A stretch of 48,221 nt of DNA from Bacteroidota bacterium (GTDB lineage: Bacteria > Bacteroidota > Ignavibacteria > UBA10030), in assembly GCA_025454835.1 (NCBI GenBank), contig JALONQ010000020.1, positions 1 through 48,221 of the forward strand. The letters run 5' to 3'. How positions within the stretch are numbered: the stretch's first letter is position 1; each line of letters begins with the position of its first letter. The translations under genes and the position numbers were made by a program. Positions 33,234 to 46,834 of this stretch are shown here, piece after piece. Below the pieces are notes generated by a model. The model searched no databases. It was not told where the DNA came from and was given only the letters and a program-made list of their open reading frames with translations.

Positions 33234-35237
33234 TCAGACGGCGGCCGATTCCCGGCGGCGGACGATGGACTTCAGGAGGATCTCAAGATCGAGGAGCACA
33301 GACTGATTCCGTGCATACGAGACCAGAAAATGCTGCACCTCTTCCGGAGACAGCGACCGGCCCCCTTGGAGCTGGATCAGGCCGGTCAGGCCCGGCTTCC
33401 CGACGGGGGTCAGACCCGCCCCGATCTCGGAGGGAGGGCCGACGAGGCTCATGCGGCCGGAAAGCACCTGCCAAAGTCCTGAAAGTCGGAGGATCGGCTT
33501 TCCGCCAGAGCGGATGAAATATACGAAAGGAAACAACGTAATCAACAAAACGCCCACGATCAGGTCGAAGAGACGCTTGGAGACGCGGTTTCGGGGGCGT
33601 TCGATGTGATAGCTCACTTCGACGAGCGGCACATCCTGCAGGGATTCCACGCTCGCCTTGCCGATCAGGACCTCGACGGTACTAGGCACGATGTGGAAGG
33701 CCACGGGGAGCCGCGCGTGTTGCGCGATCAGGGCCAGCAGATCGCTGTTGGACAGGACGCCGGGAGCGACCACGACATCGGTGAGACGATGATCGCGCAC
33801 CAGTCGGCGCAACGAATCGACCGGACCCAGGACGGGAAGGTCGATGATCGAACCGCCGTACGTGCCTCCCGGTTCGGCGATGAATCCGCACACGTCGAAT
33901 CCGTCCGTCATGCGCGTGCGAAGCTTGGCCGCCACCGAGCGACCCGAGGGTCCGGTCCCGATCACCGCCGTTCGCCGCCCGAAGATCGTCGCGCGTCCCG
34001 TCGAACGTGACCGGCCCGCCATCCGCCACCATAATCGCCAGCCTGGGATGGCCGCCGCCGTGATCGCGCCCGAGATGACCACCATCATGCGGCTGAACGC
34101 ATATTCTTTGAAGAACGCCGTGAGCGCAGCGATGAGCAGGTAGGCGACGAAGACGGCGCTCAGCGAACGAGAGACAGACAGGGAGCGGACGGTATAGACA
34201 CCGACGCCGGCGATGGCGCCGAGAACGAGAAGGATGGGCACGACGAAGACGGTCGGATAGGCGTAAGACGGGTAGAGGAACATATCGCCTCGCCAGAGCC
34301 ACTCCGCCGCGAGAAAGCTGACGAACACGATGAGACCGTCGATGGCCGCCATCCAGAAGCGCGCGATCGCCGCCCGGAACCATGCCCCCATCGCCGCCGC
34401 TTGAATGCTCAGGCGCAGCGTCGCCAGGAGCGCACGCCGATGGCCGTAGTGCTTCTCGACGAAGAGCTCCATCGCACGATAGAACGTCCCGAGCTCGTCG
34501 ATCGAGCTGCGGCGCGTGCTCTCGCCCTTGAAATGGATGATCGAGGTCGCATGCACATAGCGCACCTTCCATCCGGCCTGGCCGATTCGATAGCACCAGT
34601 CGAGATCCTCTCCGTACATGAAGAACCGCTCGTCCAACCCGCCCACCGACTCGATGACCTCACGACGCACGAACATGAACGAGCCGCTCACGGCGTCGAC
34701 GTCGTACGTGGCATCGGGGTCGAGATACGTCAGATTGTACCGGCCGAAGCGGCGACTCTTCGGGAAGAGGCGGCTGAGGCCGAGGAGTCGCGAGGCCGCC
34801 ACCCAGGGAGTCGGGAAGCTGCGACGCGCCGCCAACTGAAAGGTGCCGTCGGGATTGAGGATCTTACAGCCGGCAAGACCGACGTCGGGATGCTCATCCA
34901 GATGCGCGCGCATGACCCGCACCGTGTCTTCCTGCACGACGGTGTCGGGATTCACCAGGAGCAGATACCGGCCGCGCGCTTCGCGCATGGCCAGGTTGTT
35001 GGCGCGGGCGAATCCGAGATTCTCCGGAGAAGCGATGAGGCGGATGCGCGGGAACGACTGTCGCAGCATGGCCACGCTGCCGTCGGACGAGGCGTTGTCG
35101 ACGACGATGACCTCCGACCGGATACCCTTCAGCGCCGGACGCAGAGATTCCAGCGCGTTCGCGAGATACTCACGGACGTTGTAGTTGACGATGATGACGG
35201 AGACGTCAACGCGCGGTCGTGCGGTGCGGCGGGCCAC
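33234..35237 (-). CDS. Fusion of family-2 glycosyltransferase with a degenerate WcaJ-type sugar-phosphate transferase
   Basis: A 667-residue protein. Residues about 10-270 are a GT2 rhamnosyltransferase-like domain: [23 protein letters not shown] as metal site, and the catalytic GEDLDW. Then come about five membrane helices (295-400), a Rossmann CoA-binding-like domain (about 415-540, [15 protein letters not shown]), and a short C-terminal remnant of a polyprenyl glycosylphosphotransferase. The remnant begins [15 protein letters not shown] near 550, jumps to [14 protein letters not shown] and ends [18 protein letters not shown]. The KFRSM and DE-PQ catalytic segment between them is missing, so this half is probably inactive. 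The start is GTG 35237, overlapping the preceding gene by 32 bases; the overlap is needed to include the first GT2 strand. Confidence 0.85.
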
Positions 35238-36069
35238 TGAAGATGCTGCGGAATTTCAGTTTCCAGACCATGAAGGCCGCCTCGTGGACGATGGCCTTCG
35301 ACATCTTCGACACGCCCACGCGGCGGTCGACGAACACGATGGGCACCTCACCCACCTTGAAGCCCAACTTCCACGCCCAGAAATTCGTCTCGATCTGAAA
35401 GCTGTAGCCGTTCGAACGGATGGCATCCAGGTCCAGGGTCTCCAGGACCTTGCGCCGGTAGCACTTGAAGCCGCTCGTGGCATCCCTCACCGGCATGCCG
35501 GTGACGATGCGCGTGTACACGTTGGCGTAGTAGCTCAACAACAGGCGTTTCATCGGCCAGTTGACGACGTTCACGCCCGATTTGTAGCGCGACCCGATGA
35601 CGAGGTCGTAGTCCTTGCTGGCCGCGCTGTAGAGGTCGTTGAGCGCCTTCGGATTGTGCGAGAAATCCGCGTCCATCTCGAACACGTGGTCGAACCCTTT
35701 CTGGATGGCGTACTTGAATCCGGCGACGTACGCCGTTCCAAGGCCCATCTTTCGCGGGCGTTCGAGCAGATGGACCCGATCGTTGCTCCCCTGCATCTTC
35801 TTGACGATCTCCGCCGTGCCGTCGGGCGAGTTGTCGTCGACGATGAGCACGTGGAACGCCTTGTTCTGCTGGAAGATCCTCGGCAGCAAACGGGGCAGGT
35901 TCTCCGCCTCGTTGAACGTGGGGATGACAACGAGGGCCTTGCCGGCGTATTCGCCGCGGCGTTCGGCCGGCCCCGAGCGATCGGGCCGTCGGCTTCTGCG
36001 AAAACCATGGTCCCGCCGCGGACCGCGGCGAGGCCGTCCCGATGAACTCTGTTGTGGTTGGTCCGTCAC
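35206..36069 (-). CDS. Dolichol-phosphate-mannose synthase-like glycosyltransferase
   Basis: A 287-residue family-2 enzyme of the DPM1/polyprenol-phosphate-sugar synthase type. The first 42 residues are basic and disordered (SSSGRPRRGPRRDHGFRRSRR). The catalytic domain then shows ALVVIPTFNEAENL, VDDNSPDGTAE, the metal-binding EMDADFSHNP and the GSRYKSG and RDATSGFKCY motifs. It has no C-terminal membrane helices, like soluble or peripheral DPM1. It would transfer a sugar from a nucleotide donor to polyprenyl phosphate at the inner membrane, making a lipid-linked donor. The GTG start at 36069 has AAGGTG five bases upstream. It overlaps the next gene by 32 bases. Confidence 0.9.
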   Translation of the reverse strand: MTDQPQQSSSGRPRRGPRRDHGFRRSRRPDRSGPAERRGEYAGKALVVIPTFNEAENLPRLLPRIFQQNKAFHVLIVDDNSPDGTAEIVKKMQGSNDRVHLLERPRKMGLGTAYVAGFKYAIQKGFDHVFEMDADFSHNPKALNDLYSAASKDYDLVIGSRYKSGVNVVNWPMKRLLLSYYANVYTRIVTGMPVRDATSGFKCYRRKVLETLDLDAIRSNGYSFQIETNFWAWKLGFKVGEVPIVFVDRRVGVSKMSKAIVHEAAFMVWKLKFRSIFSGPPHRTTAR

Positions 36070-36120: not shown

Positions 36121-37218
36121 TCAACGCGCCGTGGTCAGGATCTGCAGGATGTGGTCTGCGGAGTGACCGTCTCCGTATGGATTGGGGGCAAAGTTCCATG
36201 GTCGGGGCGAACGCCAAGCCGAGTCGATGGCTTCGACGATCTTTCGACGATCGGTCCCGACCAACTCCGACATTCCAAGCTCGACGCTCTCCATTCGCTC
36301 GGTGACGCTGCGAAGCACGATGCAGTACTTGGCGAATGACGGCGCTTCCTCCTGGATGCCTCCTGAATCCGTGACCACGAAGGCTGCATGGCTCAGCAGG
36401 GTCAACAAGTCAAGGTACGAGACCGGCTCCAGAAGGAGCACGTTGGAGACCCCCCCCAGGATCGCCGTGACGGGTCCCCGCACGTTCGGATTCAAGTGGA
36501 CCGGATAGACGAACTGCAGTTCGGGATACCGCTCTGCCGAATCTCGGATCGCGCCGCAGAGCGACTCAAACCCTCCACCAAAACTCTCTCGTCGGTGGGC
36601 GGTGACGAGCACGAACGGCGCGTGGATCCGCTCATCGACCCGTCCCGGGTCTGCCAGGTCTTCGCGGTCAGAGAGAAGGCGCAACGCATCGACGACCGTA
36701 TTTCCGGTGACGAAGATCGATGACGCCGTGACCCCTTCGAGTCGAAGCTGTTCTGCCGCTTTGATCGTTGGCGCCAGATGTACGCTCGCGCATGTCGAGA
36801 TGGCCCGCCGGTTCCATTCTTCCGGGAAGGGTGCCGTCAGATCGTGGGTGCGGAGCCCGGCTTCAACGTGAACAACAGGGATGCCCGACTGGAAGCTGCA
36901 CATAGCCGCCGCCGCCGCGGTCGTCGTGTCTCCCTGCACCACAACGGCGTCGGGCGCCACCGACGACAGCACCGCTGGAAACCGCGCGAAGACGCGCTCC
37001 ATGATCTGTGGGAGTGTCTGCTGCGGCGTCATGATGGCGAGGTCGTGGTCTGCCGACAAACCGAACATACCCAGCGCCTGATCCGCCATGTGCCGGTGCT
37101 GTCCGGTCAGGCAAAGGATCGGCGTCACGCCAAACGCCGGCGCCCGCAGGATCACGGGAGCAAGCTTGATGATCTCGGGCCGCGTCCCCGCGACGAACAG
37201 GAGTCGTTTGGCGTTCAA
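36121..37218 (-). CDS. wecB: UDP-N-acetylglucosamine 2-epimerase (non-hydrolysing)
   Basis: A 365-residue cytoplasmic enzyme of normal length. It interconverts UDP-GlcNAc and UDP-ManNAc. Recognisable segments are FVAGTRPEIIKLAPVI at the N-terminus, VVQGDTTT, HVEAGLRTHD, GNTVVDAL, LVTAHRRESFG and TDSGGIQEEAPSF, which together form the UDP and sugar sites. It is coupled to the fused initiating transferase by an ATGA overlap at 37215-37218, implying that ManNAc or a ManNAc-derived sugar is built into the polysaccharide. UDP-ManNAc dehydrogenase (WecC-type) is not in this window. The symbol is by family similarity only. Confidence 0.93.
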   Translation of the reverse strand: MNAKRLLFVAGTRPEIIKLAPVILRAPAFGVTPILCLTGQHRHMADQALGMFGLSADHDLAIMTPQQTLPQIMERVFARFPAVLSSVAPDAVVVQGDTTTAAAAAMCSFQSGIPVVHVEAGLRTHDLTAPFPEEWNRRAISTCASVHLAPTIKAAEQLRLEGVTASSIFVTGNTVVDALRLLSDREDLADPGRVDERIHAPFVLVTAHRRESFGGGFESLCGAIRDSAERYPELQFVYPVHLNPNVRGPVTAILGGVSNVLLLEPVSYLDLLTLLSHAAFVVTDSGGIQEEAPSFAKYCIVLRSVTERMESVELGMSELVGTDRRKIVEAIDSAWRSPRPWNFAPNPYGDGHSADHILQILTTAR

Positions 37219-39698
37219 TGCGTCCCCCGGCCGGAGAGTGCGACGAAGAAGGTCCGGAGCATGATCTTGAGGTCGAGCGTCAGGGACATGTTCTCGAGAT
37301 AGTAGAGGTCGTACGTGATCTTCTTGCGTACATCGTCGAGCGACGTGTCGTACCGGTGCTTGACCTGCGCCCAGCCGGTGATCCCCGGCCGCACGAGCAG
37401 CCGCCTTCGGTAAAACACCACTTCGCGCTCAAGTTGATCGACAAAATAGGGCCGCTCGGGCCGCGGGCCGACGAGGCTCATCTCCCCCTTCAGGACATTG
37501 ATGAACTGCGGCACTTCGTCGATGCGATAACGTCGAATGAATCGGCCAAGCCGGGTGACCCGTTTGTCGTCCGGTGTCGCCCAGACCGGTCCGGTCTCTT
37601 TTTCGGCGTCGGTCACCATGGACCGAAACTTGTACAGCCTGAAGGCACGGCCTTTCTTTCCGACGCGTTCCTGTCGAAAGAGGATGGGACCGCGAGAATC
37701 CAGCTTGATCAGCAGTCCGACCACGGCCCAGACCGGGAGCAACGGCACGAGCACCACAACAGACACCGCTACATCGATGAGCCGCTTCACCCCCCACTGC
37801 CAACGGACCATATTCAGCGGGAAGAGCCGCATCAGGGGATGGCCGACGATCTCTTCCGTCCGAAATCCGCTGAGCACTTCGGCGTCCGTGGCCGCCACTT
37901 TGACGGCGGGGACGATCCCATCGCAGCGCGTGACAACATCGAGGATCTCCTCGCGCGACTCCAGACCGGCCACGATCAGGATCTCCTCGACGTTCATCCG
38001 ACGGACGAGCTCCGGGATGTCGAGATACGACCCGAGCACGGGGTATCCCTCGAACGTGCCGGACCGGGGCGAGCGTTCGACGAAACCGACAACCCCGTAC
38101 TGCAATCCCGGACGCAACCGGATCTCTTCCAGCAGATCTCGGGCGCTCGGGAGCGTTCCGGCGATGAGCGTGTTGCGACGCCGGAATCCGAGGATCTGCA
38201 GATGCCGCTCGAAAGAGACGATGGCCATGCGCATCAATGAAACGGTCGAAGCGATCGTGGCGCCATACACAAGTGCCGTCACTCGGCCGCCGAACGTCGG
38301 CGTGTCGGGGTCGAACGTGAAGACGAACAGCACCGCCGTCCCCACGATAGACGCCTTGAGGATCGAAAATACATAGTCGACGCGTGACACGTCCCACGGA
38401 ATGTCATAGAGTCCCGCCAGCCAGAACAGCGCCAGCCAGCCGACGACGAGGATGAGCATTCCCGGACTGATGAGGTAGGTCTCCAGCGACACGAAACCAT
38501 CGGGAGGCAGCCACCCGGAGTGAAATCGGAACCAGTACGAGATCAAGAAGGCCGCCACAAGCGCGACCGTATCTCCTGTCAGCAGGAACGCCCGGTCGAT
38601 GATCCGGGCAATACTCAGCGGCTGGATCGGCGGCCGCGGATCGCCCGACCGGGCTGCCATCTCTTCCACATACCCCAGTCGGCGGACGCCGGCGTAGATC
38701 GCCCCGAATGATATCACAAGCAAAACAAGCCCATACATCGCGTCGAGACGAGCCGTGAACAATGCCATCGTCCCCAAGAGCGCGGCGGCGGTGTATGTCA
38801 TCACCACCGTCTGGCGGTGCGTCAGCCCCAGGTCCATCAATCGATGATGGATATGCTCTTTGTCCGGCTTGAGCGGATGCATCCCTTTGCGGATGCGCCG
38901 AAAGAAGGCGATGGAGGTATCGACGATCGGCACAGCCAGGACCATCACCGGCAAGACGAGCGACGACGACAAACCCGACGGTCCTCCGCTGCCGCTCATC
39001 AGCATCAGCGAGATCGTCGCCAGAAAGAAGCCGAGGAAGAGACTCCCGGTGTCTCCCATGAAGATGGTGGCGGGGTGGAAGTTGAAGACGAGAAAGCCAC
39101 CGCAGGCCCCCACGAGAGCGAGCGACAGAACGACCACCGCGTCATTTCCTGCATACATGCCGAGCACCGCGAACGTAGCGGCGGCCACGGCGCTCACTCC
39201 CGCCGCCAGACCGTCAAGTCCGTCGATCAGATTGACGGCATTCGTGATGCCGACCAACCACAGGAGCGTGACCGGCAGCGCCAGTATCCCCAACGGGATC
39301 GGGTCCACGAACGGGACCCTGATCTGGTGGACCATCAGGCCGCCCGTGATGACAAAGCTCGCCGCCAGGATCTGGACCGACAGCTTGCCGAGCGATCCGA
39401 CTCCGCGCACATCGTCGTAGGCACCGAGCGCCACGATCAAGCCAAGCGAGAGCGCGATCCCGGTGGTCTCAGGCATGCCGGCGATGGCGCGCGAGCCGAA
39501 GGTCGCGTCGAGCACGACGGCCGCAGCCGTCCCCACAATGATGCCAACCCCCCCCATGCGCGGAATGAACCGGACGTTCACCTTCCGCTCGCCGGGATGG
39601 TCCCCGATGCCTCGGAGCGTGGCGACCCTTCGCACCACTGGCACGACCAGCGCTGAGACGGCGAACGCCACGACAATATGCAGAAGGTGGGAGATCAT
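37215..39698 (-). CDS. Fusion of WecA/MraY-type and WcaJ/WbaP-type initiating transferases
   Basis: An 827-residue inner-membrane protein with two complete initiating modules. Residues about 1-330 form a polyprenyl-phosphate N-acetylhexosamine-1-phosphate transferase with about 10 helices: GAYDDVRG (near 92), NAVNLIDGLDGLAAG (near 152), FMGDTGS (near 212) and KEHIHHRL (near 284). After more helices (about 370-490) comes a CoA-binding-like Rossmann domain, then from about 637 a polyprenyl glycosylphosphotransferase: KRLIDVAVSVVVLVPLLP, YKFRSM (near 690), RRYRIDEVPQFINVLKGEMS (near 720) and GITGWAQV. Both active sites look intact. Each module alone would load a sugar phosphate on undecaprenyl phosphate, so the protein might start two glycans or channel lipid carrier. 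Its stop overlaps wecB by ATGA. Confidence 0.9.
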   Translation of the reverse strand: MISHLLHIVVAFAVSALVVPVVRRVATLRGIGDHPGERKVNVRFIPRMGGVGIIVGTAAAVVLDATFGSRAIAGMPETTGIALSLGLIVALGAYDDVRGVGSLGKLSVQILAASFVITGGLMVHQIRVPFVDPIPLGILALPVTLLWLVGITNAVNLIDGLDGLAAGVSAVAAATFAVLGMYAGNDAVVVLSLALVGACGGFLVFNFHPATIFMGDTGSLFLGFFLATISLMLMSGSGGPSGLSSSLVLPVMVLAVPIVDTSIAFFRRIRKGMHPLKPDKEHIHHRLMDLGLTHRQTVVMTYTAAALLGTMALFTARLDAMYGLVLLVISFGAIYAGVRRLGYVEEMAARSGDPRPPIQPLSIARIIDRAFLLTGDTVALVAAFLISYWFRFHSGWLPPDGFVSLETYLISPGMLILVVGWLALFWLAGLYDIPWDVSRVDYVFSILKASIVGTAVLFVFTFDPDTPTFGGRVTALVYGATIASTVSLMRMAIVSFERHLQILGFRRRNTLIAGTLPSARDLLEEIRLRPGLQYGVVGFVERSPRSGTFEGYPVLGSYLDIPELVRRMNVEEILIVAGLESREEILDVVTRCDGIVPAVKVAATDAEVLSGFRTEEIVGHPLMRLFPLNMVRWQWGVKRLIDVAVSVVVLVPLLPVWAVVGLLIKLDSRGPILFRQERVGKKGRAFRLYKFRSMVTDAEKETGPVWATPDDKRVTRLGRFIRRYRIDEVPQFINVLKGEMSLVGPRPERPYFVDQLEREVVFYRRRLLVRPGITGWAQVKHRYDTSLDDVRKKITYDLYYLENMSLTLDLKIMLRTFFVALSGRGTH

Positions 39699-39710: not shown

Positions 39711-40919
39711 TCAGGCCACTCGTGGGGCGCAGTTCAGGCAGCGGTCGACGTCGGCAGCGATCTGGTCATACACCGGATTCCATGAATAGCGCTCACGCAC
39801 CCTCCGCGCCGCTGACATGCCGAGGCGACGACGGAGTTCCGGGTCCGCCAGGCTCCTGGCGACCGCATCGGCGATGGCCTCCGGACCATCGGCCACGAGG
39901 AGATGGACTCCCGATTCGACCTCGAGCCCCTCCGCACCGAGCGTTGTGGTCACCACAGGCCTGGCCATCGCCATGCCTTCGAGGATCTTGTTCTGTACGC
40001 CCGCGCCGAAGATCATGGGCGCCAGAACGACCTTGGCCCGTCGCACGAATTCGAGCGGATCGGGGACCTCACCCGTCACGGTGACCTCTCCTTCCCGCGC
40101 CAGCGCACGGACATTCTCTCCTGGCTGGATCCCCACGATCGACAACGTCGGACGAAGACCACGTCGGTGCAAGATAGGGAGGACTTCTCTGACAAAGAAG
40201 ATGACGGCCGCCTGATTCGCCTGTGTTCCCATGTGGCCCACGAACACAAGATCGAGGTCTTGGACAACCGGCGTCTCCTGATCATCCCGCACGCCAACCG
40301 TTCCGTTTCCCAACACCTGCAATCGCTCCCCGCTCGCCCCCCGCTGAACGAGGTACTCGCGGTCGGCATCGGCGACGACGTAGGAGCGATCAAAACGGCG
40401 AGTCGTCTCCACCTCGTAGCGTTCGAGGCGAGGGATCTCGGTGCGATAGATCATCCTCCACGGCAACGAGAGCTGATGTTGAAGCGCGCGCCGATAGTTC
40501 ATCGAGATCGCATCGACGAGGTCCACCATCCTGGGTCTCGTCGTGGAGGCCAGGTAGTCGGTCATGCGCACATGGAAGGCAAAGGCCAGGTCACTCCGCT
40601 GGAGAGCTTCATCGACCCAGGCCTGCACGCTCGCGAAACGATAGTATCCCACTTGGATCGGCTCTCCGGGAGTCACGACCGCCCGCACGGCCTTGAGGCG
40701 AAATCGGAGCGGGTGGAATGGCAGGACGGTGACACGCGCGAATTGCTCGCGCAAGTGCGTCACGGCCGACGCATCCGGTGGACCCTCCGAAAGACTCAGA
40801 AGCTCGACGTCCCCCGCTCGCTGTAATCCACGCAACACATGATACACCCTCAACCGATCGCCACCGGCAAGAGGATACGGCACGCGCGACGCCAAGGCCA
40901 GGATGCGAGGCCGCGTCAT
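39711..40919 (-). CDS. GT4-type glycosyltransferase (first of two)
   Basis: A 402-residue GT-B-fold glycosyltransferase. The N-terminal half starts MTRPRILALASRVPYPLAGGDRLRV, the usual glycine-rich acceptor-side loop. The C-terminal half has VFVGHMGTQANQAAV and the donor-site motif FGAGVQNKILEGMAMARPVV, which corresponds to the E-x7-E signature of GT4 retaining enzymes. The ATG at 40919 overlaps the previous stop by ATGA; the longer frame to 40952 is unlikely. It lies 12 bases before the fused initiating transferase. It probably adds one sugar of the repeat unit on the cytoplasmic face; donor and linkage cannot be told. Confidence 0.87.
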   Translation of the reverse strand: MTRPRILALASRVPYPLAGGDRLRVYHVLRGLQRAGDVELLSLSEGPPDASAVTHLREQFARVTVLPFHPLRFRLKAVRAVVTPGEPIQVGYYRFASVQAWVDEALQRSDLAFAFHVRMTDYLASTTRPRMVDLVDAISMNYRRALQHQLSLPWRMIYRTEIPRLERYEVETTRRFDRSYVVADADREYLVQRGASGERLQVLGNGTVGVRDDQETPVVQDLDLVFVGHMGTQANQAAVIFFVREVLPILHRRGLRPTLSIVGIQPGENVRALAREGEVTVTGEVPDPLEFVRRAKVVLAPMIFGAGVQNKILEGMAMARPVVTTTLGAEGLEVESGVHLLVADGPEAIADAVARSLADPELRRRLGMSAARRVRERYSWNPVYDQIAADVDRCLNCAPRVA

Positions 40920-42091
40920 GAGGCGCCCACTGTCGATCTCGACCGACGACACAACGCATCGGCCTCAAGCACCTTCGACATGACCTCATCCGCGATCGCA
41001 CGCCACGAGTAGGACAGCGACCGGCGTCGTCTCAGGTCCGAGGCGCCATCCGATCGGTCAGCCAACGCGTCCGTCACGGCCTGAACGAACGATCCGGCGT
41101 CGCGCGTTACGGAGGCGACGTCGGCGAACTTGCGGACCTCCGGCAGGTCGGTCGAGACGACCGGAAGTCCGAGCGCGAGATACTCGAGCAATTTGAGGGG
41201 ATTGGAGGCCACGGTAAGCTCGTTCACCTCGAACGGGATGAGGCCGACGTCGAACCATTGTCCCCATGACGGCAGTTCAGCGTATGGCACCTCGCCGAGC
41301 AGATGGATATTCGGCTCCGCTCCCAGGCGCTCGGTCGTGGTGGAAACGCGCCCCAGAACGATCACAGATGCCGATGGGTGCCGCCGGGCGGTACTGACAA
41401 GCAGGCCTTGATCGATCCAGGGGGCCACAATGCCGAAGAAGCCGATCCAGGGTCGGGGCAACGCTCGGAGAGCAAGCGGCGGCTCGCCGCCCCGACGTTG
41501 AAAATGGTCCGTATCGACGCCCTGGGGCAAGAAGTACGAGCGGCCGGAAACGGGAACGCGCGTCTGGCGGAGAATGTCGGAGACGGAGAACACCGTTTCC
41601 GATCGCTCGACGAGAAGGCGTTCCGTCGTCGCGAGGCAGTCGAAGGCCCCTTTGAATTTCGTGAAATCGTCAAGACAGACATAATGAAAGGATGACTCTC
41701 CGAGCAACCCGGCCAGTTCCCCCACCAACGGCGAAGCGCTGATCACGATCGGTTCGACGAATCGTTGGCGTTCGGCTTCAGCTCGAACGGCGCGGACGAT
41801 CGATGCCATGTTCAGCCGACGCAGGCGGTCGACATCGTGAAAAGGCAGAACGAACGGATGGACCTGGATCACGGGGGAGCTTGGCTCGGCCGCGGGTTGG
41901 CGGAACCATCGCGACGCCTTTTCGGCGACCCGGGCGACATCCCGAAGGTGGAACTCCGGTTTCCGCAATCCAAGCGAACCGATCCATATGATCCGGTGTC
42001 GTTCGGCCAGGACGCGTCCCAGATACTGGATGGTGGACGGATAACGTCCCCAATCGTCGGCGAACACGATGAGATCGCGGCCGGTGCTCAT
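40916..42091 (-). CDS. GT4-like glycosyltransferase (second of two)
   Basis: A 391-residue GT-B-fold enzyme of the TuaH/GT1-like type. It opens MSTGRDLIVFADDWGRYPST, has FPQGVD-like YFLPQGVDTDHF at the inter-domain junction, then RPWIGFFGIVAPWIDQGLL, and the donor-site region LTVASNPLKLLEYLALGLPVVST containing the second Glu of the usual signature. ATGA overlaps link it to the genes on both sides (42088-42091 and 40916-40919). The ORF extends upstream to 42766 only by chance; the true start is fixed by the overlap. Substrate unknown. Confidence 0.87.
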   Translation of the reverse strand: MSTGRDLIVFADDWGRYPSTIQYLGRVLAERHRIIWIGSLGLRKPEFHLRDVARVAEKASRWFRQPAAEPSSPVIQVHPFVLPFHDVDRLRRLNMASIVRAVRAEAERQRFVEPIVISASPLVGELAGLLGESSFHYVCLDDFTKFKGAFDCLATTERLLVERSETVFSVSDILRQTRVPVSGRSYFLPQGVDTDHFQRRGGEPPLALRALPRPWIGFFGIVAPWIDQGLLVSTARRHPSASVIVLGRVSTTTERLGAEPNIHLLGEVPYAELPSWGQWFDVGLIPFEVNELTVASNPLKLLEYLALGLPVVSTDLPEVRKFADVASVTRDAGSFVQAVTDALADRSDGASDLRRRRSLSYSWRAIADEVMSKVLEADALCRRSRSTVGAS

Positions 42092-43063: not shown

Positions 43064-44344
43064 TCAGGTCGTTCCCGTCGCTTCCGAATTCCCGTTCGTA
43101 ACCGTCGCTTGATCTCCGCGCTTGGAACGAAGCGTCTGGATGATCATCCATCCGAATCCAGCAGCCATCGCCGCTTCGACGCCAACACGTACCGCCGCGC
43201 TCGAGACCGCCCCGAACTGCGGTATCAAGACCGCATTGAGCATCGTGGCCACAAGTGCCGCCGCGCCGGTGACTACGACCAAGACACGGTCCCGACGCAT
43301 CGCGACCACGGCCTGCGATGCAAGGAAATTGAGGAAGTAGAAGAAGAGCATGGGGCCGAGGATCTGCAGAACGACGCCCGAGCGAACAAAGGTCGGGCCG
43401 AAGAGGAGTTCGACGAGCCACGGCCCCCACAGTACAAGGAAGCCGCCCACCAAAGCCCCTGCCGCCGCCAGTAGCCACGCCGCGCGACGAAGCGAGGCAC
43501 GGAATGCGCTGGCATCGGTGTCAAACGATGAGGCCAGCAACGGAAAGACCGTGGACATCATCGAGAGGGGAATGAACATGAGCGCTTCGACGACCCGCAT
43601 CGCGGCGTTGTAGACACCCGCCTCCGTCGGCGAGACAAGCTGCTCGAGCAGTACGATGTCCAACCGGTAGTAGATCGTGCTGAGGAGACCGGCCAGGAGC
43701 AAGGGCAACCCTTGGACCGTCCCCTCACGAATGATGCGCCACGAAAACGGCGGCCATGACCATCCATAGTGCCGGCGGAAGGTTCGGAAGGCGACCAGGA
43801 GCATGATCGCTATCGAAGCCAGCGAGGCACCGGCCACCGCCCCCAACGTCGGGCGGATCGTCAGCGCGCTGAGGACCCAAACGGCGTACGAGACGCGTTC
43901 GGCAATGACGAAAGCGGTCACCCGACGCATCGCCTGGGGCACCTCGTGGGCACGCACCAGCATCGTGAACGCCGATTCGGCGAGAGAGGCCGCGACGAAA
44001 AGACCCAGCGTCGCCATGGGATATCCCATGATGAAGCCGCCGGCCATCAGGCTGGCCGCCGCCACGATCCCCCAGGTCAACCGGGGCCAGAGCGTTCGTC
44101 CAACGATCGACGCTTCGCGGCCGGACTGCTGGCTCATCCCGCGAAGGGTCGGCAACAGCATGCCGAAGTCGGAGATGAGCCCGGCAAACGTCGAGAACGC
44201 GAGCATCGTCCCGAGCAGCCCGAATTCTTCCAGCGACAGTCGCCGGGCCACGCTCAGGACAACCACCAGCGTCGCGATCTTCGAAACGACGCGTGCTCCG
44301 GCCAACAGCGCCGATCGCCCAAGCAGGTCGCGGAGTTCCTTCAT
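43064..44344 (-). CDS. Oligosaccharide flippase (Wzx-like), first copy
   Basis: A 426-residue membrane protein with about 12 helices. The start MKELRDLLGRSALLAGARVVSKIATL with SLEEFGLLGTM matches the polysaccharide-biosynthesis/MATE-like Wzx family. It would flip the undecaprenyl-diphosphate-linked repeat unit. ATG 44344 overlaps the polymerase stop by ATGA, and the long upstream open frame to 44620 is spurious. The pairing with polymerase, Wzz and export gene defines a Wzx/Wzy-dependent pathway. Confidence 0.88.
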   Translation of the reverse strand: MKELRDLLGRSALLAGARVVSKIATLVVVLSVARRLSLEEFGLLGTMLAFSTFAGLISDFGMLLPTLRGMSQQSGREASIVGRTLWPRLTWGIVAAASLMAGGFIMGYPMATLGLFVAASLAESAFTMLVRAHEVPQAMRRVTAFVIAERVSYAVWVLSALTIRPTLGAVAGASLASIAIMLLVAFRTFRRHYGWSWPPFSWRIIREGTVQGLPLLLAGLLSTIYYRLDIVLLEQLVSPTEAGVYNAAMRVVEALMFIPLSMMSTVFPLLASSFDTDASAFRASLRRAAWLLAAAGALVGGFLVLWGPWLVELLFGPTFVRSGVVLQILGPMLFFYFLNFLASQAVVAMRRDRVLVVVTGAAALVATMLNAVLIPQFGAVSSAAVRVGVEAAMAAGFGWMIIQTLRSKRGDQATVTNGNSEATGTT

Positions 44345-45717
44345 GAACGCGCAGGCACGGATGAAGTCGCGTGGAGACTGAGCCAGCGCAGGCTGACAGC
44401 CACGTTGACGCCGACCATCAAGAAGAGACGGACGAAGTCCGCGGATGAGACGAACGCACACAACAGTCCGATGAACCACCCCAGGAGCACTTGGGTTTCC
44501 CATCGGTCCCAGGGAAGCGATCGCAGACCGCGCAGGGTCGTCCGCAGGATGTGCCAGACCGCTCCCCAATAGACCACCATGGCCAACAGCCCAAGCTTCA
44601 GGAACTGCGTCACATACCACATGTGCGTGCTCTGGAATCGAGTCTTGTGCGTGAATCCGGACCCTCCATCGGGCAACAGACGACGGGCGCTGTCATCCCA
44701 CCACGCCCCTAAGCCCATCCCGTGCAAGAACGCGAAATGGCTCAAGACGTAGTCCCAGACGTTCACGATTTCCAACAGCTTGGTGGAATTTGATCGCTCA
44801 CCGTAGACCGACCAGTCGAAGATGGAAGCGAACTTGAAGTTCCACGCCAGTTCCAGGAATCGGGGGAAGAGCACCGAGATCACGGCAAGAGAGAGCGTCA
44901 GGCCGACGCCGATGACAGCCGAGAGTACTATGCGCGATTGCCGCGGCAACAAGATCAGCAGGGCCATCGTCCCCAGGATCAGCATCACCCATACGGTCCG
45001 GTAGATGCCCAGCAACGAGTTGACCAGGTAGATGGCCACGAGCAGGGCGAGCAAGAGACGGAGCAGAACCGAACCCCGACGGAGGAGGAGCAGCAGAAAC
45101 GGAAAGAACATCATCGGGAAATAGGCGAACTCGGAGTTTTGAGACGCCCGGAATGCCCAATCACCGATCGCTTTCCCCACACCGGAGAACGTATTGCTGA
45201 GGATGACAACGTTCTTGACGGCCATGACGGCGAGGATCGTCACCAGGAACAGCCGCCACCGGTTCTTCGTATCGACCAAGATGTACGTAATCAGAAAGAA
45301 CCCGGCCATATACAGCGTCTGCTGAAGATCTTGGACCCAATACGTGTAGTCGTATCGCAGACCGAAGCTGTAGAGGAAGCCCACGATGCCGGCATACAAG
45401 TAGGTTGCCAGCATGGCCATGATGGCCGTGTGCCCCGACGTCCACTCGAGCCGGTCCGTCAAGGCGGTCTTCAGAACGGCCAACAGAAACAGGGCCGCCG
45501 ACAAAAGGTCCATGATCTTGATGCCGGCCAATCGAACGTTGAAAACGGTCGGAACTTCCTGATCGGCGTGGACAAGCTGGAGGTCGTCACCCCAAAGGAT
45601 GGCGATCATCCCCACCAACAGCAGCAAGAAGCCGGCCCCTCCAGCGAGTCGCGCCAAAGGGAGTCGTAAGCCGCCAACCGGCTGGTCCGATCGTCTGTCA
45701 ACCGCGATCGCGTCCAC
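44341..45717 (-). CDS. O-antigen/exopolysaccharide polymerase-like protein (Wzy/WaaL type)
   Basis: A 458-residue protein with about 12 membrane helices and one long periplasmic loop between about 300 and 355 (ELAWNFKFASIFDWSVYGERSNST...HKTRFQSTHMWYVTQFLKLG). The NSLLGIYRTVWVMLILG segment and the loop with conserved His/Arg are typical of the O-antigen ligase/polymerase superfamily. The start is GTG 45717, overlapping the wzz-like gene by 20 bases. In this setting Wzy (polymerisation of flipped repeat units) is more likely than WaaL, but family similarity cannot separate them. Confidence 0.8.
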   Translation of the reverse strand: MDAIAVDRRSDQPVGGLRLPLARLAGGAGFLLLLVGMIAILWGDDLQLVHADQEVPTVFNVRLAGIKIMDLLSAALFLLAVLKTALTDRLEWTSGHTAIMAMLATYLYAGIVGFLYSFGLRYDYTYWVQDLQQTLYMAGFFLITYILVDTKNRWRLFLVTILAVMAVKNVVILSNTFSGVGKAIGDWAFRASQNSEFAYFPMMFFPFLLLLLRRGSVLLRLLLALLVAIYLVNSLLGIYRTVWVMLILGTMALLILLPRQSRIVLSAVIGVGLTLSLAVISVLFPRFLELAWNFKFASIFDWSVYGERSNSTKLLEIVNVWDYVLSHFAFLHGMGLGAWWDDSARRLLPDGGSGFTHKTRFQSTHMWYVTQFLKLGLLAMVVYWGAVWHILRTTLRGLRSLPWDRWETQVLLGWFIGLLCAFVSSADFVRLFLMVGVNVAVSLRWLSLHATSSVPARS

Positions 45718-46834
45718 GGAACAGCTCTTTCCAGATCTGGGACAACTCGGGCCGCTCAGAGATCATCCAGGCCCGGTATTCCATGAAGGCCACGGTCCCG
45801 AAGGCGATCACGAGGCTGAGAAACACGCTGATGCCAAGGACGAACAATCGCTTCGGCCGATCAGGCCGTTCCCCCGGCTTGGCCGCGTCCAGCACATAGG
45901 CGACCGGGACGTCCTTGTATTCATTGATCTTCGCCTGCTCATAGATCGGAACGATCAGCTCCATGATCTTCTGCTGGATCAACACCTCCCGATACCGCCG
46001 GAGCGAATTCATGCCGACGTCCGGGATCCGGGCGATCTTCTCGTCGATCGACCGGTATTCGAGCAGTGCCCTTTGATACAGAGGGCTGGCTCTCTCGACG
46101 GACTTGCTCAGGACCTCCAACTCGATCTCCTTCTGCACCTTCATCGCGTAAAGCTCGGCGATCGCACCCACGCCGCCGGACGACCCTTCGGGCAGAATGA
46201 TGAGGCCCTCCTGCTCCTGGTACTTCTTCAATTCCTGCTCGGCCCTGAACAGATCCTCTCGATTCTGTGCCACCCTCTGCTCGATGAACACCCGGTTGTT
46301 GCGGCCTTCTTGCGTCTGTAGCTCATAACTGCGTTGGTTCAGGAGCTGCACAAATGCATTGGCCATGTCCGCGGCACGCTGGGCATCTTCATCCCATACC
46401 CGGATCTCGAGCGTGTTCTCCTCGGTCCAATCCACTTCCACGTTCATCCAAAGGGCTTTGATCGTCCTCTCCATGGAGCTGTCGGACATCTCATAGACCG
46501 CCTTCAGGTTGAAACGATGCACGACCTCTTCTGAGATCGTGCGGCTCTTGAGCAGTGCGACGTAGTCGTACGCATCGGTGGCCCCTCCGAACTTCGTCAG
46601 TCCACCCGGCAGGTTCTTCACAAGGCTCGATAGACCTGCCAGCCCCGCCAAGGTGGGGCTCTCCTTCGGCGGCAGTATGCGTGTGACCGACTTGTAGTGG
46701 CGGGTGACCGTGAAGGCCAGCACCAAGCCGACAACCAAGCCCGTGAGCGTGACCCACCCGATCAGCCGTAGACGACGAGCGACCACCACGGCAAGGTCGG
46801 AAAAACGAACAGTATGAACGTCAGAGGCTGTCAT
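45698..46834 (-). CDS. Wzz-family polysaccharide chain-length regulator
   Basis: A 378-residue co-polymerase. Two membrane helices frame a large periplasmic region: 25-43 (GWVTLTGLVVGLVLAFTVT) and about 333-352 (VLGISVFLSLVIAFGTVAFM). The N-terminal Wzz domain contains the usual DAYDYVALLKSRTISEEVV and the periplasmic part is helical with KYQEQEGLIILPEG. AKPGERPDRPKRL just before helix two is the Pro-rich Wzz signature. There is no C-terminal tyrosine kinase domain. It regulates chain length with the polymerase gene that follows. Confidence 0.9.
   Translation of the reverse strand: MTASDVHTVRFSDLAVVVARRLRLIGWVTLTGLVVGLVLAFTVTRHYKSVTRILPPKESPTLAGLAGLSSLVKNLPGGLTKFGGATDAYDYVALLKSRTISEEVVHRFNLKAVYEMSDSSMERTIKALWMNVEVDWTEENTLEIRVWDEDAQRAADMANAFVQLLNQRSYELQTQEGRNNRVFIEQRVAQNREDLFRAEQELKKYQEQEGLIILPEGSSGGVGAIAELYAMKVQKEIELEVLSKSVERASPLYQRALLEYRSIDEKIARIPDVGMNSLRRYREVLIQQKIMELIVPIYEQAKINEYKDVPVAYVLDAAKPGERPDRPKRLFVLGISVFLSLVIAFGTVAFMEYRAWMISERPELSQIWKELFRGRDRG

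Follow-up and report, generated by a model that had tools for sequence, protein, structure and literature searches.

Two unrelated superfamilies of phosphoglycosyl transferase, the polytopic (WecA/MraY-type; PNPT) and the monotopic (WcaJ/WbaP-type; PHPT) enzymes, share the first step of glycan building. An abstract by O'Toole, Imperiali and Allen from 2021 reportedly describes fusions of monotopic and polytopic transferases. Here we analyse a protein that, like the fusions so described, carries both kinds of transferase in one chain. It is encoded on a 48,221-nucleotide stretch of DNA (the window) from a Bacteroidota bacterium of the order UBA10030 (contig JALONQ010000020.1, assembly GCA_025454835.1). 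Judged by their motif residues, the two active sites of the fusion are separable, as lineages have lost one or the other. The reading that we favour, with moderate confidence, is that of a genuine double initiating transferase, in which two alternative priming sites would sit on one scaffold and each half would have a further, non-catalytic role.

Domain architecture and predicted structure

The gene is a single uninterrupted open reading frame with an ATG start, as given by the reading frame listing. Its parts are as follows.

37215..39698, minus strand: fused gene, polytopic (WecA/MraY-type) plus large monotopic (WcaJ/WbaP-type) phosphoglycosyl transferase, 827 aa (Pfam, NCBIfam, predicted model)
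38664..39698, minus strand: PNPT half, residues 1-345 (Pfam, predicted model, motif reading)
37809..38606, minus strand: four transmembrane helices and the CoA_binding_3 (Rossmann-like) module of large monotopic transferases, residues 365-630 (Pfam, predicted model)
37218..37799, minus strand: PHPT catalytic domain, residues 634-827 (Pfam, predicted model, motifs)

Pfam places Glycos_transf_4 at residues 80-233 (E 2.1e-39, 135.5 bits against a gathering score of 27), CoA_binding_3 at 428-592 (E 4.1e-10) and Bac_transf at 638-821 (E 9.5e-69), the latter two also above their gathering scores. The residues of the PNPT catalytic motifs DD, NxxDGxDG, GD and HxHH are present (D95 and D96, N156, D159, D162, D216, and H282, H284 and H285); the aspartates are catalytic in PNPTs, and HxHH belongs to the motifs of WecA types. 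Residues ~365-827 make up a complete large monotopic transferase, with four transmembrane helices, the CoA_binding_3 module and a catalytic domain that carries KFRSM (690-694), the Asp-Glu dyad (D727-E728) and PRPE (745-748). This part of the protein matches the NCBIfam model for large monotopic transferases, TIGR03025, over residues 376-825 with 401.1 bits, above the subfamily cut-off of 295.55. By sequence, the closest solved proteins are MraY for the N-terminal half and WbaP and PglC for the C-terminal half.

A predicted model of the 827-aa protein (predicted local distance difference test score, pLDDT, 83.2; predicted template modelling score, pTM, 0.62) shows residues 1-351 as 11 membrane helices and 363-500 as four more, followed by a Rossmann-like module at ~505-625 and a PglC-like domain from 632. 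Residues 1-318 of the model match MraY (8cxr_A; Z 34.5, root-mean-square deviation (rmsd) 2.1, 287 residues aligned) and residues 631-824 match PglC (8e37_A; Z 20.9, rmsd 2.5, 177 aligned). Residues 362-822 match WbaP (8t53_A; Z 21.2, 385 aligned) with an rmsd as large as 12.0. WecA proper has 11 membrane helices; for the PNPT half the model gives 11 and a crude hydropathy scan 10. By the WecA and WcaJ models, an odd number of helices would bring the end of the PNPT half to the cytoplasmic side, where large monotopic transferases start.

The N-terminal half thus resembles WecA/TagO-type PNPTs in its motifs and in the MraY-like fold of its predicted model, but the protein differs from them in carrying a whole second transferase at its C terminus and in scoring below the WecA equivalog cut-off. 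With WcaJ and WbaP it shares the four transmembrane helices, the CoA_binding_3 module, KFRSM, the Asp-Glu dyad and a score above the TIGR03025 cut-off; unlike them, it has a PNPT in front and stays below the WcaJ equivalog cut-off.

Distribution of the fusion

In its own order the fusion occurs in 9/98 genomes, spread over seven genera and four families, and all nine are among 198 related genomes searched. The eight relatives of the window protein have the same domain order and are 49-60% identical to it; seven of the matches begin no later than residue 8 and run to 827, and that of the eighth (G050), which is preceded by an N run, covers 124 to 827. The two halves were found together nowhere outside the own order in a draw of 391 genomes from the class and another of 395 from the phylum (E up to 1e-150). 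Restriction of the fusion to one order was nevertheless overturned by a wider scan and by searches of three other phyla (E up to 1e-120). Among the matches listed in the wider scan, the fusion is present in two own-order records titled Ignavibacteriae and in L076, L077 and L078. We label the three phyla by the record titles of relatives: Neomarinimicrobiota (L076; phylum of G690), Calditrichia (L077; phylum of G691) and Calditrichaeota CLD3 (L078; phylum of G692). Their searches gave fusions in 17/245, 33/40 and 2/9 genomes, respectively, two of the 17 (G918 and G923) having been recognised separately. The spread is at least this wide, as it draws in part on the matches listed in the wider scan and the E limits could hide weaker fusions.

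These relatives also bear on whether the fusion could be a misassembly, a frameshift or a chance joining of two neighbouring genes. Unfused neighbours do exist, as on a Hydrogenedentota contig (L121:3451-6079) where the frames of a PNPT and a monotopic transferase overlap by ~32 bases and are arranged as in the fusion, and one Calditrichia gene (L180, genome G951) has an in-frame TAG after its PNPT half. Against these stand 60 further fusion proteins from 59 other genomes, of which 58 are single open frames of 783-857 aa and the two shorter ones (L014 and L168) are explained by an N run or a contig end. We therefore regard an artefact as ruled out for all practical purposes. The initial annotation had read two unrelated superfamilies in one chain with intact motifs in both halves (GAYDD, NLIDGLDG, GDTGS; KFRSM, DEVPQ), and this is borne out by Pfam, NCBIfam and the single 827-aa frame, with every motif found in the window protein. 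The same domain order, which it proposed to look for in other genomes, recurs in the own order and in the three other phyla; the assembly error that it considered possible at the join is excluded, as the join (~345-365) aligns across relatives without a break and they carry the same fusion.

The single in-frame TAG of L180 may be a sequencing error, a split gene or decay, which were not told apart. On a Desulfobacterales contig (L091:5950-7131), separate frames match the PNPT and the middle module, and are perhaps a broken fusion.

Loss of either active site

Catalytic residues were read at fixed positions in an alignment of 61 different fusion proteins from 60 genomes; G951, split by the in-frame TAG, and the duplicate L157 were left out. 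The PNPT half of L014 and L168 is unreadable, owing to an N run or a contig end. According to PMC10519829, the Asp-Glu dyad defines the monotopic transferase superfamily and marks its active members. Both sites are intact in 22/61 proteins, comprising eight from the own order, 12 from Neomarinimicrobiota and two from Calditrichaeota CLD3; in the own order this amounts to 8/8 readable proteins in six genera. In Calditrichia the dyad is lost from 33/33 proteins (from 32 of its 33 fusion genomes), being replaced by Tyr-Lys in 32 and by Asn-Arg in one. KFRSM is eroded in the same proteins, with the phenylalanine kept in 85% and the arginine in 14/33, and the PNPT site is intact in 31/33, two proteins carrying Glu for D216. 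The opposite loss is seen in four Neomarinimicrobiota genomes (G906, G908, G909 and G910), where the residues of DD, NxxDGxDG, GD and HxHH are gone and KFRSM and the Asp-Glu dyad are kept.

The suggestion in the initial annotation that the two enzymes are alternative first enzymes gains support from these relatives. The loading of two different sugars, which it also raised, stays a conjecture. Its doubt that such a fusion had an established description is probably misplaced, as the architecture itself is probably already in print, in what O'Toole et al. reportedly describe. What is new here is that either active site can be lost and the dead half still kept; that report is not known to include lineages in which either half has lost its catalytic residues. 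The portions of the open-licence literature available to us, work on these transferases included, contained no description of a PNPT-PHPT fusion. Nor did we find in the open-licence literature any description of fusion lineages that retain a half with an altered site, or any publication on phosphoglycosyl transferase pseudoenzymes.

Constraint on the inactivated halves

Proteins with a dead half are of normal length: 810-857 aa in 32/33 from Calditrichia, the remaining one (L198) being shortened by a contig end, and 813-817 aa in the four PNPT-dead proteins. In a predicted model of L077 (pLDDT 82.8, pTM 0.57), the dead monotopic domain keeps the PglC fold (8e37_A; Z 21.0, rmsd 2.5, 176 aligned). 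The same half scores 133 bits as Bac_transf, far above the cut-off of 27, and a Pfam hit alone is misleading here. Within Calditrichia, the best conserved residues of this domain include Tyr-727 and Lys-728 (32/33) as well as G744, P745 and R746 (33/33). Mean pairwise identity is 55% for the PNPT half and 75% for the PHPT half in the own order, and 48% and 47%, respectively, in Calditrichia.

Ratios of nonsynonymous to synonymous change (dN/dS) were obtained by a simple, crude codon count over 11 pairs that we chose. The dead PHPT domain gave 0.030, 0.086, 0.091 and 0.131 in four pairs, with too few changes in a fifth, and the dead PNPT half gave 0.127 in one pair, a rough value as dS is near 2. 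For comparison, two own-order pairs gave 0.016-0.105 over both halves. For the PNPT half, double-active pairs from Neomarinimicrobiota gave 0.041-0.321, the top value coming from a dS of 0.07 and few changes; for the PHPT half the countable values were 0.062-0.117. By these measures the dead halves are under purifying selection, with the constraint relaxed and not gone.

The degraded sites raise a rival account of the window protein, in which one half alone primes and the other, with its motifs intact, already serves a regulatory or structural purpose. One site is degraded in 37/59 readable fusions, so one working site is enough for the fusion to be retained. We nevertheless hold this account to be unlikely for the window protein: a half without chemistry would be expected to lose its catalytic residues, as happened in the other lineages, whereas every readable own-order protein, from six genera, keeps both sites intact, and dN/dS is low for either half in the two own-order pairs that were counted.

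Evolutionary history

Quick trees were built with Shimodaira-Hasegawa-like approximate likelihood ratio (SH-aLRT) supports and no bootstrap, and 14/33 Calditrichia rows were left out of all three. The PNPT tree was also made without the four PNPT-dead rows, L014, L168 and 40/80 rows labelled standalone; L083 and L237, which are identical and were kept as standalone, end with the contig or locus and are probably cut fusions. In the middle-module tree (78 rows), all fusions and one lone large monotopic transferase, from the own-order genome G044, form a cluster (SH-aLRT 85) that excludes the remaining lone proteins of this kind. Within this group, the Calditrichia rows form one group (98), and the PNPT-dead four form another (98) inside the Neomarinimicrobiota fusions (100). 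The PNPT tree (99 rows) also brings the fusions together (94), with Calditrichia split between two groups (100 and 98) at an unresolved fork. Both trees favour a single origin for the fusion. The simplest reading is that the double-active form came first, and there was at least one event of each kind of loss.

The lone G044 transferase (L016 / L045:2242-3654) groups with the own-order fusions in the middle-module tree (99), a placement suggestive of loss of its PNPT half; the genome is 62% complete. Its gene neighbourhood is similar to that of the fusion.

A further rival account has the two sites coupled, one half controlling the other or supplying it with carrier or product (substrate channelling towards one glycan). 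The two sites should share a carrier, they lie in one chain, and the adjacent genes make one polysaccharide locus, all of which would suit such coupling. Yet either site has been lost in nature while the other stays, and a lone C-terminal half, that of G044, branches with the fusions. Coupling would thus be at most optional, and we consider this account very unlikely.

The ~650-aa PNPT proteins of the own order were also considered as fusions that had lost the phosphoglycosyl transferase domain. This was unsupported: their PNPT halves form a separate clade (100), so they are probably an independent joining.

Other transferase genes in the same genomes

Besides the fusion, eight of the nine own-order fusion genomes have one PNPT gene of MraY-like length and one (G078) has none (Pfam); since nothing else was found, the fusion seems to be their sole WecA-type gene. 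PNPT matches occur at two places in the window's own genome, one being the fusion and the other a 374-aa gene that its length and score mark as a presumed MraY; Bac_transf matches occur at four. In Calditrichia, 29/33 fusion genomes have a single PNPT match besides the fusion, so the intact fused PNPT seems to be their sole WecA-type gene. Its 33 fusion genomes have 2-8 Bac_transf each, the fusion included, among the matches listed, so most have other monotopic transferases. Further PNPT genes number two in G906, two in G909 and one in G910 of the PNPT-dead genomes, and none was found in G908.

Across the 98 own-order genomes, the 830-aa fusion is found in nine and PNPT frames of ~640-760 aa (21 places) in a further 20, and the two never occur in one genome. 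Each of the 17/21 that were read has some 280 extra residues past the PNPT part; a profile of the middle module recognised 12/17, and CoA_binding_3 was above its cut-off in 1/2 scanned (Pfam). The own-order proteins L049-L065 (~640-720 aa) resemble the fusion in that a WecA-type PNPT is followed at the C terminus by a transmembrane and CoA_binding_3-like module, related to the accessory module of large monotopic transferases, but they lack a phosphoglycosyl transferase catalytic domain. Four genomes (G055, G059, G083 and G090) have PNPT fragments, five have no match, and the remaining matches, of 281-465 aa, are taken as MraY by length and score. The recognisable WecA-type PNPTs of the own order seem fused to something.

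A possible double priming enzyme

In the double transferase that we favour, the N-terminal, WecA/TagO-like half would put N-acetylhexosamine-1-phosphate on undecaprenyl phosphate, and the C-terminal, WcaJ/WbaP-like half would put another sugar-1-phosphate on the same carrier by way of an Asp-Glu ping-pong site. Both sites would face the cytoplasm and be fed by the same carrier, within a locus that has Wzx-like and Wzz-like genes. They would act as alternatives, neither being a required step before the other, since one or the other has been lost in related lineages. A further, non-catalytic job, as scaffold, in dimer contact or in control, is suggested for each half by the retention of whole dead halves under purifying selection. 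What we infer is that both halves of the window protein are active, together with their sugars, how the protein lies in the membrane and what the non-catalytic job consists of.

Several observations weigh against this proposal. The WecA equivalog (TIGR02380) scores 148.6 bits against a cut-off of 326.05 and the WcaJ equivalog (TIGR03023) 360.6 against 410.75 (NCBIfam), so the sugars of both halves are guesses. The topology is unsure, because a crude hydropathy scan gives the PNPT half 10 membrane segments and not the 11 of the predicted model. Intact motifs can also accompany an idle site. In Neomarinimicrobiota and Calditrichaeota CLD3, most double-active genomes have a further PNPT beside the fusion and the MraY-like gene, so the fused PNPT need not be the sole primer there. 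In the PHPT-domain tree, made with one lone row left out, the Neomarinimicrobiota fusions group with lone transferases (87), with long branches flagged; a single fusion group was not rejected by an approximately unbiased (AU) test on 54 rows, without five lone rows and all Calditrichia rows (p 0.405). Finally, the PNPT-dead group has a mean pairwise identity of 48% in the PNPT half vs 83% in the PHPT half, which points to weaker constraint on the dead half, and it is from sequence constraint alone that a non-catalytic role is suggested.

Lineages with either site dead, in which the dead half is still selected, make the question of why the two were joined testable through natural double-active, PNPT-only and monotopic-only versions.

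The surrounding polysaccharide locus

The fusion lies among genes for polysaccharide synthesis, including further glycosyltransferase genes (Pfam) and the following.

33234..35237, minus strand: family 2 glycosyltransferase with transmembrane segment, CoA_binding_3 and truncated monotopic transferase domain (Pfam, alignment)
35206..36069, minus strand: family 2 glycosyltransferase, similar to polyprenyl-phosphate sugar synthases (Pfam; no NCBIfam equivalog reaches its cut-off)
36121..37218, minus strand: UDP-N-acetylglucosamine (UDP-GlcNAc) 2-epimerase, WecB type (TIGR00236 above cut-off, Pfam)
39711..40952, minus strand: glycosyltransferase, Glycos_transf_1 type (Pfam, NCBIfam)
43064..44620, minus strand: Wzx-like flippase (Pfam Polysacc_synt)
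45698..46834, minus strand: Wzz-like chain-length protein (Pfam)

The TTG start of the UDP-GlcNAc 2-epimerase gene overlaps the stop codon of the fusion, and the Glycos_transf_1-type gene ends 12 bases ahead of its start codon. No Wzy was recognised at the locus; a 458-aa gene at 44341-45717, which has no Pfam hit, is a candidate by position only.

In the product of the gene at 33234-35237 the Bac_transf domain is shortened and has neither KFRSM nor the Asp-Glu dyad. Among 12 aligned relatives the remnant domain is present in 11/12, with the dyad in 0/11, and L045 lacks the domain. A gene of this type adjoins or lies near the fusion in 5/5 Calditrichia regions examined and is near it in 6/8 further own-order fusion regions, the contig ending near the fusion in the other two. 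It was found in none (0/9) of the fusion regions from Neomarinimicrobiota and Calditrichaeota CLD3, some of which are cut short. WbaP is a dimer with swapped accessory hairpins (PMC10942596), and a mixed dimer of the fusion with the 33234-35237 product is conceivable on that account, as a speculation.

A broader idea, which we put forward tentatively and think rather improbable, is that of an evolutionary switch. Lineages would inactivate one of two priming chemistries on one membrane scaffold and keep the inactivated half as a pseudo-enzyme for docking or controlling its partner. In Calditrichia the former Asp-Glu site would have become a maintained Tyr-Lys site newly used for binding or control, and the neighbouring glycosyltransferase, which has a dead monotopic domain of its own, would pair with the fusion. 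If true, this would put priming and later sugar transfer in one complex.

Antisense to one of the fusion genes there is also a 940-aa open frame (L042:12875-15694, minus strand), which is probably an effect of base composition.

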